A model generated the notes under the pieces. That model was not told the origin of the DNA. It worked only from the letters and a program-made list of their open reading frames with translations, and did no database searches. Below, piece by piece: positions 3,535 to 53,172 of a stretch of 64,000 nucleotides of DNA. Position 1 is the first letter of the stretch; each line of letters begins with the position of its first letter. Source of the stretch: an uncultured Bacteroidia bacterium (lineage in GTDB: Bacteria; Bacteroidota; Bacteroidia; Bacteroidales; F082). The stretch spans positions 29,554-93,553 of the forward strand of contig CACXQV010000012.1 in NCBI GenBank assembly GCA_902769875.1. Reading direction: 5' to 3'. Both the position numbers and the translations under genes were made by a program.

Positions 3535-5106
3535 TCATACATTCCTCTCGATGCAACAACTATGCTGCTTGGATTCCCGATTGTATGAGATTCCCACAAG
3601 AAGCAGATTGTCAGTATATTGCAAAATTTTGGCTGGATATTGCTTCCGCTTGATTTGCTCGATGGCTGTATCAACGGCCTTGTCATACTTCAATTCTATG
3701 ACGATGGCAGGCGAATCCACGTTCTTTCTTGGAATGAGCACCAAGTCAGCGAAGCCCTTGCCAGTGGCCAATTCGCGGTGGATGATGTAATCGTTTGAGG
3801 CATAATAATATGCAATGCTCAACACACAAGCCAATGAGTTCTCGTCGTTGTAGCTCAAAATACTGGTGTTCTCGTCGTGAGCGGCATCCACGCCACGGGC
3901 CACAGCCACTTCGTCGCCGCGAAGCGTGGCTTGGAGGAGTTGTTCCGAGGCGTTCAAGGCGTTCATCACGTGAGTCCAATTGCTGGCTTCCACGGCGTTG
4001 ACCATCTCGCCCGCCACTTCCTTGTTGGGAATGTAGCACTCATTCTTTTGCCAATTATATGAAAGGTAGCCCAAATGAATAAGCACGGTGAATACATCGT
4101 CTTTGCTACGAATGATAGACATATCGTTCTGGAACTTGGTGGGGTTGACCTTGCAGCGTTCTTCGGCGAGCATACTAATCACGGCATCCTTCAAGCCATC
4201 GTAGTTCATTGAGATATAGTGCGCCACGGCATCGTATGCACCTGTTGCGGCCCAAAAACTACGGCAACGACGACTTCGGAGTGCCTGCATCACCGAGTTA
4301 GGATTGAAGATTGACCGCTCGTCGCCAATCTGGTAGCCGTCGTACCATTTCTCCAATTCGTCAAAGTCCATACGATGCTTTTCGGCCAAGGCTTTTACCT
4401 CATCCTTTGTGAATCCGAAATAAGAGGCCATATCTACAGGCTCCACCATCGAATACTCGATGAAATTGTTCAACGCCGACTCGGTCTTGTATTTCTTGAT
4501 GGGCAAAATGCCCGTCATATAGACACCTGCAAACACTTGTGGCGAGTTGCTCCCCTTGAACATCCGACGCAGCCAGTTGACAAAATCGTCCATGACATGG
4601 GTGTCGGGCCTGAACTCGCGGCAGATGGCATCCCACTCGTCGATGATGAAGATGAACGGCTGTTGGGTGGAATCAGTAACGCGAATAAGGTAAGCCATCA
4701 AATCGTCATCGTCGATGACGGGAATGTCGGGAAACGCTTTATGGACATCGTCAATCAGCTCTTTTTGCACATGCTGCATGATGCTGTCGTCCTTGAAGCG
4801 CGTGGTGAAATTGGTCAGGTCGAGGAAAATGACAGGATACTTGTTCAGATGCTTCTCAAATGACGGGTCATTGGCTATTTCAAGACCGGCGAAAAGCGCC
4901 CTTGAATCGCACGATTGGTCATAATAGGCATTGAGCATCTTGGCCGCCAACGACTTGCCGAAACGACGACTACGCGACACACAGCTGAAACGACGCTCTG
5001 TAAAAAGCGTGCTGTTGACGATGGCAATCAAACCCGATTTGTCAACATATTCACCATTTATTACGCTCTGGAATCCAGCATTGCCAATGTTGATGTATGT
5101 TCCCAT
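3535..5106 (-). CDS. AAA-ATPase / PD-(D/E)XK nuclease-like protein (DUF1703 type)
   Basis: 523 residues with the two-part layout of a family that is very common and mobile in Bacteroidota. The N-terminal AAA-ATPase-like domain has the Walker A variant RRFGKS at 47-52 and a Walker B-like FIFIIDEWD near 150-158. The C-terminal part has the PD-(D/E)XK-like strand pair FADLVLIP ... IVIELKYD, resembling DUF1703. The start is supported by a -7 box (TACCTTTG) at 5132-5125, about 20 bases upstream. The biological role of the family is not established; proposals include nuclease or mobile-element functions. The family call is firm, the function unknown. Confidence 0.85.
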   Translation of the reverse strand: MGTYINIGNAGFQSVINGEYVDKSGLIAIVNSTLFTERRFSCVSRSRRFGKSLAAKMLNAYYDQSCDSRALFAGLEIANDPSFEKHLNKYPVIFLDLTNFTTRFKDDSIMQHVQKELIDDVHKAFPDIPVIDDDDLMAYLIRVTDSTQQPFIFIIDEWDAICREFRPDTHVMDDFVNWLRRMFKGSNSPQVFAGVYMTGILPIKKYKTESALNNFIEYSMVEPVDMASYFGFTKDEVKALAEKHRMDFDELEKWYDGYQIGDERSIFNPNSVMQALRSRRCRSFWAATGAYDAVAHYISMNYDGLKDAVISMLAEERCKVNPTKFQNDMSIIRSKDDVFTVLIHLGYLSYNWQKNECYIPNKEVAGEMVNAVEASNWTHVMNALNASEQLLQATLRGDEVAVARGVDAAHDENTSILSYNDENSLACVLSIAYYYASNDYIIHRELATGKGFADLVLIPRKNVDSPAIVIELKYDKAVDTAIEQIKRKQYPAKILQYTDNLLLVGISYNRESKQHSCCIERNV

Positions 5107-36501: not shown

Positions 36502-36650
36502 TTTTCTGAACGAAAAAACAACAAATCTCACGTTTTTCTGAACGAAAAAACAACAAATTCCCCGTTTTTCTGAACGAAAATTCAGCATTCCAATCCGTTT
36601 TTCTGAACGAATATTCTGTAATTCAACCCGTTTTTCTGAACGAATAATTA
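36502..36650 (-). repeat. tandem array, five units of TTCGTTCAGAAAAACG, 32-33 bp period
   Basis: Cores begin at 36502, 36534, 36566, 36599 and 36632 (plus-strand coordinates of TTTTCTGAACGAA). About 16 bases are conserved and the rest vary. The array ends at the promoter box 36498-36491. Confidence 0.85.
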
Positions 36651-36751
36651 TATTCAACAAATTGAATAACAGTAATTTGATAAAAAATTCATTTAATATT
36701 ATCCGTCAACATTTTTGGTTCAAGAAGAATATGCGCAGAATTGTAGAATCT

Positions 36752-51447: not shown

Positions 51448-51464
51448 GGTAAAGGAAGCATAAA

Positions 51465-52751
51465 TCAATCTTCCCGTTCCCCAAGCATCCATTCGTAGGC
51501 AGGAATGATTTTTATGGTCTTTCCCTCTTTTAGTAGTGTATCACGCTGGAAATCAGTAATTAAAAACAACTTGTCACACCGAGTTTCCCGCGAAGTCGTC
51601 AGCAGCCCCCTAACTTCTCTATTGAAAGTTTTCTCCGAACTGATGTCGTAACTCACTTGATAGACTTCAATCACTTTGTTTCCCTTACAAACCACAAAAT
51701 CAGCCTCATAGCCGTTGCTATTCTTGTAATAATAGATGTCTTGCTCCAAAGGACGGTTGCGGCGAAGCAACTCGATGTAAACCAAAGACTCCAAACGAAA
51801 TCCCAAATTCTCACCCGAAAAAGCATCCTCGCGGCCATCCATCAAGGCCACATCAATCGGGTAGACTTTCTTGTCGTACAACCTGTTTTTGCTTTTGGTG
51901 GAATATCTTCGCAATTCCACAAGAAGATAGGCCTCCATCAAATAATTGATGTAATTGTCAACCGTATGGCTCGACTTGATTTTCAACAAATTAGCCAAAT
52001 CCTTCGACACTATTGTAGCTGGGGCAATGTTCAACAGATGCTGTGCCAATTGCTCAAAAGCGCGGCTATACTTGATTTTGTGCCGTTGTTCAATATCACG
52101 CTTCAAGATGTTTTCAACCAATGTATTGACATAGCCCGTCTTGTTTTTCCTATGAAGCAGTTCGGGAAAACCACCCTGCTTGAGGTATTGGTCGAAAGCA
52201 TCCCGCCTAAACGCCTCATTTTTGGTCGTCAATGTGGTCGCATCAACATTTTTGGCTGTGCAAAAATCCCTGAACGAGAACGGATACAACTCTATTTCAT
52301 CGTGCCGCCCTGTCAAATGGGTAGCCAATTCTCCACTAAGCAAATTGGCATTTGAGCCAGTAATGATGATGTGCATCTTCGTCCTCAGCAACCGATTCAC
52401 GAAAAGATACCAGCCTTTTATGTTCTGAATCTCATCGATAAACAAGTACTTGAAATCGCCATAGATTTTGTAAAGCACCTCCAACATCGGATTGAGGTCT
52501 TCTGTCTTCAACGCTTCCAAACGCTCGTCATCGAAATTGACGTAAGCGAATTTCACTTTTCGTGAACGCAACATACTGTAACACAATGTCGATTTCCCAG
52601 AACGACGAACACCGATAACGCATTGAGCCATAGTGCTTTCAAGGTCTATCTGATTTTCTTCCTTACGAGAACACAGACGAGCCGAAGCCATATCCAACAG
52701 TTCTTGATGCTGCTCCGTTACCACTTCCTCAAGGATTCTTTTCTCTATCAT
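51465..52751 (-). CDS. ATP-binding protein, AAA plus DUF4143
   Basis: 428 residues. Walker A GVRRSGKST near 48-56, Walker B YLFIDEIQNI near 107, a GSNANLLSGELATHLTGR sensor region, and a C-terminal DUF4143 part whose YEADFVVCKGNKVIEVYQVS looks like a PD-(D/E)XK-type strand pair. The family is numerous and mobile in Bacteroidota; its role is not known. The gene is preceded by a -7 box at 52777-52770 and a 12-unit 32-bp repeat array. A short open frame through the array stops four bases before its ATG, so coupled translation is possible. Confidence 0.85.
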   Translation of the reverse strand: MIEKRILEEVVTEQHQELLDMASARLCSRKEENQIDLESTMAQCVIGVRRSGKSTLCYSMLRSRKVKFAYVNFDDERLEALKTEDLNPMLEVLYKIYGDFKYLFIDEIQNIKGWYLFVNRLLRTKMHIIITGSNANLLSGELATHLTGRHDEIELYPFSFRDFCTAKNVDATTLTTKNEAFRRDAFDQYLKQGGFPELLHRKNKTGYVNTLVENILKRDIEQRHKIKYSRAFEQLAQHLLNIAPATIVSKDLANLLKIKSSHTVDNYINYLMEAYLLVELRRYSTKSKNRLYDKKVYPIDVALMDGREDAFSGENLGFRLESLVYIELLRRNRPLEQDIYYYKNSNGYEADFVVCKGNKVIEVYQVSYDISSEKTFNREVRGLLTTSRETRCDKLFLITDFQRDTLLKEGKTIKIIPAYEWMLGERED

Positions 52752-52769
52752 AGCTTAATAATTTCGCCA

Positions 52770-52777
52770 CAAAAGTA
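52770..52777 (-). promoter_or_regulatory. -7 promoter box adjoining the 12-unit array
   Basis: TACTTTTG on the minus strand, 18 bases before the ATPase start; the nearest repeat unit begins 19 bases upstream of it. Confidence 0.5.
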
Positions 52778-52795
52778 CAAAATATCCCAATACAA

Positions 52796-53172
52796 ACTGC
52801 AATGCTGCGTACATTTTTGGCTTCCGAACTGCAATGCTGCGTACATTTTTAGCCTTCAAACTGCAATGCTGCGTACATTTTCGACTTCCAAACTGCAATA
52901 TTGCGTACATTTTCGGCTTCCAAACTGCAATGCTGCGTACATTTTCGACTTCCAAACTGCAATATTGCGTACATTTTCGGCTTCCGAACTGCAATGCTGC
53001 GTACATTTTTGGCTTTCAAACTGCAATGCTGCGTACATTTTTGGCTTCCGAACTGCAATGCTGCGTACATTTTTAGCCTTCAAACTGCAATGTTGCGTAC
53101 ATTTTCGACTTCCAAACTGCAATGCTGCGTACATTTTCAGCCTTCAAACTGCAATGCTGCGTACATTATCAC
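52796..53172 (-). repeat. tandem array of 12 units, exact 32-bp period
   Basis: Units begin every 32 bases (52796, 52828, 52860 ... 53148) with ACTGCAATGCTGCGTACATT on the plus strand; the remaining 12 bases vary among about six versions. Frames on both strands stay open through it by composition. It overlaps the last codons of the CotH gene. Confidence 0.95.

Follow-up and report, generated by a model that had tools for sequence, protein, structure and literature searches.

The present analysis identified private, helically phased, operator-like repeat arrays at the promoters of single-gene PDC-S01 cassettes, which are real, widespread and, in the accessible part of the literature searched, undescribed. 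As far as the available text of its description goes, PDC-S01 is a computed phage-defence candidate that combines an AAA ATPase with a PD-(D/E)XK domain (PMC12988326); the accessible portions of a rumen study list it as the most frequent individual locus in rumen genomes (PMC13356809), and both sources, in the parts available, place it among the commonest candidate defence genes of bacteria and archaea (PMC12988326, PMC13356809). A fusion of an archaeal AAA+ ATPase with HTH and RecB nuclease domains has likewise been tabled as likely defence, according to the accessible section of that work (PMC4158269). The available text of the two PDC-S01 papers (PMC12988326, PMC13356809) makes no mention of upstream arrays, the terms "direct repeat" and "tandem repeat" have no occurrence in the accessible main text of PMC12988326, and no report pairing DUF4143 with tandem repeats was found in the literature as far as accessible, subscription journals and preprints aside. 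Neither a description of DUF4143 arrays nor a tested mechanism for PDC-S01 came up in the accessible text of the open literature searched.

A phased promoter array gives a handle on the control of PDC-S01 and predicts which DNA each ATPase should bind, and the many natural copies amount to a large set of paired protein and site sequences from which a recognition code could be read. Besides, the cassettes may carry their own control and accumulate in one genome without cross-talk: the source genome (G000) holds 53 DUF4143 matches, 45 of them above the Pfam cut-off.

The window array and its ATPase gene

The window, that is, the whole stretch of 64,000 nucleotides analysed here, carries at 52796..53167 on the minus strand an array of 12 units, each consisting of a 20-bp core and a 12-bp spacer. 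The cores (ACTGCAATGCTGCGTACATT) start at 52796, 52828 and so on to 53148 and every interval is exactly 32 bp, which confirms the perfect register described in an earlier, sequence-only reading of this DNA; nine cores are exact, two carry two changes and one carries a single change. The variable 12-base spacers of that reading were also found (n = 11), in seven recurring versions rather than about six. TRF called the array at 52793-53167 with a period of 32, 11.7 copies and a score of 568. When up to three mismatches were allowed, the core had 12 matches in the 3.5-Mb draft genome, all inside this array, and the reversed control pattern had none in the same scan. The order on the minus strand is array, 18 bases (counted to the first core, instead of the 19 given before), a TACTTTTG box at 52770..52777, 19-26 nt before the ATG, and the ATPase start codon at 52751. 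This box fits TAnnTTTG, which we take to be the consensus of the Bacteroidota -7 promoter element. The outer end of the array directly adjoins the stop codon of a CotH gene. Going by this layout, we read the array as putative phased, operator-like sites upstream of the ATPase promoter. A CRISPR array, in which repeats alternate with unique spacers of about 26-72 bp and are accompanied by cas genes, was rejected, as the spacers here measure 12 bp and recur, and the neighbours are the CotH gene and a gene of 722 aa.

The ATPase gene (51465..52751, minus strand) encodes 428 aa and is a PADLOC PDC-S01 candidate: Pfam finds AAA_14 and DUF4143 and no further domain, and the PADLOC profile PDLC04787 (PDC-S01) matches residues 33-425 with an E-value of 1.5e-96. 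The DUF4143 ATPase family presumably corresponds to COG1373. NCBIfam profiles gave no match to the protein, and no sequence relative was found in the PDB at E 0.01. An AlphaFold2 model built from 45 aligned relatives (pLDDT 90.6) suggests the domain order AAA, helical lid, winged helix and PD-(D/E)XK-like. The AAA P-loop domain (residues 37-165; 52257..52643) was delimited from Pfam, model and family alignment, the predicted winged-helix DNA-binding domain (residues 229-282; 51906..52067), which forms the first half of DUF4143, from the secondary structure of the model, and the predicted PD-(D/E)XK-like domain (residues 294-425; 51477..51872) from model and alignment, all on the minus strand. 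The top Foldseek entry was the P. abyssi ATPase 2qen, followed by Dark, DnaA, ORC and MalT and, lower down, a STAND defence protein, with low TM-scores throughout (2qen 0.42 and MalT 0.29, normalised by the query).

Among 178 family members examined, the Walker A and B residues are conserved in every aligning member, E321 is kept in 177, D351 in 174 and E or Q at position 365 in 177, and lysine at 367 occurs in 89. The window protein has E321, D351 and Q365 and carries serine at the position of the motif lysine (S367), so that the residues of an active PD-(D/E)XK nuclease are incomplete and nuclease activity is doubtful. As to the residues that might read the DNA, the stretch around 171-182, at the start of the lid, varies more than the recognition helix in one subfamily (seven proteins), and so do the lid stretch (~171-182) and the C-terminal tail in another (nine proteins). 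The recognition helix is thus not supported as the hypervariable part in these two subfamilies.

Arrays upstream of DUF4143 genes

The proposed tie between a regulatory-type array and DUF4143 genes is supported by comparisons within the source genome and among distant homologues, in both of which arrays of similar period are clearly present upstream of other family members. In the source genome, TRF (period 18-40, score at least 60, from 250 bp upstream to 20 bp inside the gene, gene fragments included) detected arrays at 31 of 52 testable DUF4143 genes, leaving 21 without one at this threshold, versus 11 of 248 control ORFs, which were taken from 400 kb of sampled genome and one of whose positives (L106) is itself a family member. 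Autocorrelation over 160 bp upstream, with nulls set for each gene set (12.8 for DUF4143, 10.4 for PDDEXK_9 and 10.5 for controls), placed 35 of 48 DUF4143 genes above the 1% null, of which 31 had a lag of 22, 23, 32 or 33, as compared with 32 of 248 controls, whose lags were scattered. A scan of GTDB genomes returned 80 loci, ranging from 99%-identical relatives to archaea, Paceibacterota, Omnitrophota and Alphaproteobacteria. Among its distant homologues, archaea included (71 members, L174 onwards), direct repeats at lags 22, 23 or 31-33 were found in 25 versus 3 of 225 other genes from the loci which that scan returned (Fisher P 1e-14), and a direct repeat or a palindrome in 40 versus 15 (P 4e-18).

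Taken over the 270 members with 150 bp of upstream sequence (276 were collected), 114 had significant repeats, 103 of them at lag 22, 23, 31, 32 or 33. Rates were high in G000 (38/58) and G119 (25/36), counts that are not independent since the copies of these two genomes partly belong to the same lineages; the GTDB set gave 33/79. They were low in relatives (6/24), the phylum sample (3/27) and the handle set (5/23), whose loci are the best-scoring DUF4143 matches of their respective searches, and in G135 (3/15) and G138 (1/8). G119 and G174 are apparently a single genome. Where no array was detected (163 members), promoter palindromes exceeded the 95% null in 47% of cases, versus 6% of the 248 controls, and there was a weak lag signal in which 33 and 32 were the only strongly enriched values (z 11 and 7.8). 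Of note, a viral copy (L424) shows short repeated upstream cores by eye that TRF missed, so that the detection rates are probably lower bounds.

DUF1703 genes had been named beside DUF4143 genes for a survey of upstream repeats; the PDDEXK_9 (DUF1703) domain of the window lies at 3568-3813. As a second carrier these genes are not supported: two of 15 testable PDDEXK_9 genes, from 26 matches in the source genome, exceed the null, at lags 22 and 60. At least seven of the 26 matches lie within ~450 bases of a contig end (C70, C61, C14, C100, C27, C6, C62), which suggests that the PDDEXK_9 family, too, may be repeated or mobile.

The family is rare in viruses, with two viral-contig loci in one pattern scan and 19 of 50,697 phage records. 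The exact 19-mer of the window core had no match in viral contigs, and the core as a viral target was rejected on that ground. None of four distant plasmid copies of DUF4143 genes, examined out of 302 matching records, had an array of period 22, 23, 32 or 33; one plasmid, pCALNI01 (L439), carries a different type of repeat, GAACGTT-like and 7 bp long, upstream of a DUF4143-type ATP-binding gene. The longest array seen precedes a DUF4143 gene and has at least 23 units of 33 bp (L014, 2-768; G000:C6); it reaches the edge of the examined stretch and may be longer. A 33-bp array of 2.5 units (L091, 11347-11429) sits between divergent large genes not called as DUF4143, one of which begins, by eye, like a metallophosphoesterase.

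Most of the 14 arrays that were laid out unit by unit consist of a conserved core and a spacer that is freer in sequence and fixed in length. In the window array, the mean major-base frequency is 0.976 in the core versus 0.853 in the spacer, the core block having been chosen as the best block for this contrast; L012 and L021 show little of it. To judge from the unit sequences, this pattern is what putative helically phased binding sites would look like, with 22 or 23 bp corresponding to two turns and 32 or 33 bp to three. Several archaeal units are palindromic (e.g. ATTTGGTCTGACAGACCAAAT, repeated at 33 bp in L217). In G000, G119, the relatives and the phylum sample together, a TAnnTTTG box precedes the ATG by 17-40 nt in 48 of 70 array genes, against an expectation of 4%. 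For 28 of these 48, fewer than 20 bp separate the end of the array from the -7 box downstream of it, or array and box overlap, so that the -33 region is covered; for 12, the array stops more than 30 bp upstream of the box.

As a rule, each gene has private units, and these diverge along with the protein. In a search of 1.0 Mb of G000 sequence, overlapping loci counted, 33 units of the source genome were each confined to the array they came from, the one exception being a pair of paralogues that are 78% identical. When the units of 95 arrays were compared in pairs, those belonging to proteins less than 40% identical were about as similar as shuffled sequences, and similarity reached 0.70 at 70-85% protein identity (eight pairs) and 0.91 above 85% (18 pairs). 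A group with 23-bp units and proteins 60-70% identical has the period in common and different cores.

Unit number varies between relatives, all of them compared in draft genomes, where long arrays may be mis-sized: the window array has 11.7 copies and three 99%-identical orthologues with the same unit have 3.8, 3.9 and 3.7. In a 60%-identical group (L171-L173), a related unit is present in 5.6, 3.6 and 7.5 copies, and L168-L170 (66% identical) have about three units by eye that TRF missed. A comparable array was present on both sides in nine of 22 reciprocal pairs between G000 and G119. Five of the nine differ by about whole units (11.7/3.8, 3.7/2.7, 2.8/3.8, 3.8/2.8, 3.7/4.7), one by 2.5 units (9.0/6.5) and three hardly at all, and the gene-proximal end is fixed within one base in eight. 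In some other pairs an array was called on one side only, e.g. four units in L019 and none in L318.

Gain, loss and apparent exchange of the cassette

Array and gene behave as one cassette, gained and lost together. In the window, the cassette of gene, promoter and array spans 51457..53168, its gene-side boundary being approximate, and is present or absent between two convergent neighbours. When 60 congeners were searched with the neighbouring 722-aa gene, 30 loci were examined, 23 of which (own genome aside) had at least 70% identity. Seven of them (L385, L388, L391, L392, L394, L396, L398) show an empty site with neither gene nor array, where the flanking stop codons lie a few to ~20 bases apart, and two (L386, L389) are occupied. 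As to the others, a CotH-like match lies at a distance of ~1 kb in two, and the remaining 12 have neither CotH nor ATPase within the up to 1.5 kb of sequence available. No target-site duplication was seen by eye at the cassette ends. Just behind the 722-aa gene, palindromes of the AGACGCAAAATTTTGCGTCT type occur in L389, L393, L395, L399 and L400.

The window ATPase gene is 98.5% identical to the G119 copy at the same site, between a CotH gene at 75% and a gene on the other side at 87%; the L389 allele (82% at the amino acid level) shows no such identity island. Across eleven G000/G119 pairs, identity between the DUF4143 genes is 0.848-0.988, and at least 0.962 in nine pairs, versus a median of 0.867 for their neighbours (n = 41, neighbours without a reciprocal hit left out; P 1e-4), a comparison that leans towards conserved DUF4143 copies because the eleven, part of 17 reciprocal pairs of at least 85% amino acid identity, were chosen as close reciprocal hits.

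Gene and array also appear to move jointly between genomes. Five other genomes hold copies of a second cassette (L037) that align with it at 65-80%: with three of them, the alignment runs from just before the array to the stop codon, with L428 it starts 34 bp inside the array, and with L437 it ends 13 bp short. None of the five has a flank in common with L037, and L426 and L427 share some further flank with each other. In a sixth genome, G168 (L431), the two L037 flanks lie 42 bp apart, and 3.7 kb including the cassette are absent. In a third case (L380/L381), the alignment spans the gene and its upstream region, short pieces aside.

A further array in the window, at 36502..36655 on the minus strand (about 4.5 copies of CTGAACGAA units), had been regarded as of the same kind. 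Its units are indeed unrelated to those at 52796, as stated then, and a promoter-like box lies beside it on the minus strand (by eye), but it has neither a DUF4143 nor a DUF1703 gene next to it. The exact 16-mer of its unit occurs elsewhere in G000 only at C76, where a 161-aa DUF4143 C-terminal remnant follows an array of this type (L042, 2917-3402); array units make up the start of the remnant frame, as would result from a deletion that joined the array to the end of the gene. The 16-mer was also found in eight of 59 other genomes of the genus. In six of them (L442, L444, L446, L448, L449, L450), it lies in a 3-kb locus with a DUF4143-family frame, which in L446 is a full AAA_14 + DUF4143 protein, and the loci of L443 and L445 hold no DUF4143-family frame. 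On this sequence pattern, the array at 36502 is best read as a probable orphan of a lost cassette of the same DUF4143 system.

Possible modes of action and known parallels

We consider it fairly likely that the array is a set of phased operators by which the downstream ATPase controls its own gene, most likely through repression that phage infection relieves. Specifically, we infer that the encoded protein is the binder, that it oligomerises on DNA, that its binding represses and that infection is the trigger. Several ATPase molecules would sit on the cores along the same side of the helix, with the AAA domain as their probable means of oligomerising, and the fixed spacing of two or three turns would keep the bound proteins in register with each other and with the promoter; the bound ATPase would then control its own gene, most likely by repressing it, until phage infection relieves the repression. 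The winged helix of the model and the fold matches to DnaA, ORC, MalT and STAND proteins were counted for this operator reading. With binding as predicted from the sequence, repression seems likelier than activation because arrays overlap the -33 region and because palindromes lie, by eye, over -10- or -35-like elements in two plasmid copies. A Thermus thermophilus DUF4143 gene, TT_P0211, rose 6.6-fold when plasmid and Argonaute were both present and showed no change above 4-fold without Argonaute, as given in the accessible part of that study (PMC4406477), a rise that provides one outside hint of inducibility.

In a variant that we hold to be unlikely, the ATPase would bind the array and switch its own gene on, so that a trigger amplifies the defence protein. 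MalT, which acts on its targets as an activator, is among the fold matches (8bob), and the 12 of 48 arrays ending more than 30 bp upstream of the box suit activation from upstream; on the other hand, the 28 of 48 that come within 20 bp of the -7 box or overlie it suit repression, as do the palindromes of the two plasmid copies. Rather improbable, too, is that the array is DNA held or cut by the ATPase-nuclease, serving exclusion, homing or allele replacement instead of transcription. Such a role would fit the position of the array at one end of the cassette in the cases compared, the near-identity of the window gene to its G119 partner between diverged neighbours (98.5% versus 75% and 87%), the persistence of the arrays at 36502 and C76 without an intact gene, and a unit number that varies while the gene-proximal end is fixed. 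Yet a promoter would form the 5' end of the cassette anyway, and the promoter-proximal geometry, the palindromes of array-less members and S367 are simpler to explain by operators.

Both roles could be joined in a private address and store, a speculative idea to which we attach low probability: the resting ATPase would form a helical oligomer on its own sites, silencing the gene and holding the effector inactive until infection releases it; unit number would set store and threshold, private units would let dozens of paralogues coexist, and the address would govern cassette exclusion or replacement. If true, this would explain the identity islands and the orphan arrays.

Three further explanations fare much worse than the operator reading. 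It is very unlikely that A-tracts phased at ~11 bp act as curved DNA or as an UP-like element and stimulate the promoter with no specific binder involved. Although the periods are multiples of ~11 bp and several units are rich in A-tracts (by eye), neither the window unit nor those of 23 bp form A-tract arrays (by eye), and gene-specific cores with freer spacers, together with their divergence along with the protein, would be left unexplained. A neutral minisatellite arising from slippage, which would fit the differing unit numbers of relatives, is refuted by the matched controls and has next to no probability given the association with one gene family across phyla and archaea, the restricted periods, the conservation of cores while spacers drift and the gene-proximal end fixed in eight of nine pairs. 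Hardly any credence is due to translation coupling or a small peptide encoded by the repeats: the short frame noted before the ATPase exists (ORF 52755-53006), its stop ending three rather than four bases before the ATG, but each of the three minus-strand frames once described as open holds stop codons inside the window array, periods of 22, 23 and 32 shift the frame, unit number varies, and the promoter box between array and gene makes this ORF unlikely to be on the ATPase gene's own transcript.

Plasmid iterons are helically phased direct repeats of ~22 bp that lie next to the gene of their binder, a winged-helix initiator, and the present arrays resemble them in repeat length, phasing and a predicted winged-helix protein next door. 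They differ in their position at a promoter, in belonging to a 93-kb contig where the neighbours are ordinary, and in accompanying an ATPase with a PD-(D/E)XK-like domain; an iteron replication origin was rejected, as Pfam finds AAA_14 and DUF4143 only and no sign of a replication function is seen. With MalT, STAND proteins and 2qen, the modelled protein would share, judging by weak fold matches, a P-loop ATPase followed by helical and winged-helix parts, from which it differs in the additional C-terminal PD-(D/E)XK-like domain, and the TM-scores are low. The nearest parallel for the control logic, by analogy and as far as the available text of its description goes, may be RptR, a first-gene product that binds palindrome-containing direct repeats in a defence-island promoter and needs no more than two of them to repress (PMC12255303). 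Repeats at the promoter are common to both, with the ATPase as the probable binder here. In the accessible account, RptR is a 9-kDa repressor in its own right and acts on three 9-bp repeats, whereas the present cassette has no small dedicated repressor as its first gene and consists of a single gene for a 428-aa ATPase, the effector itself being the proposed binder of repeats that are 22-33 bp long, number up to at least 23 units and are private to each gene.
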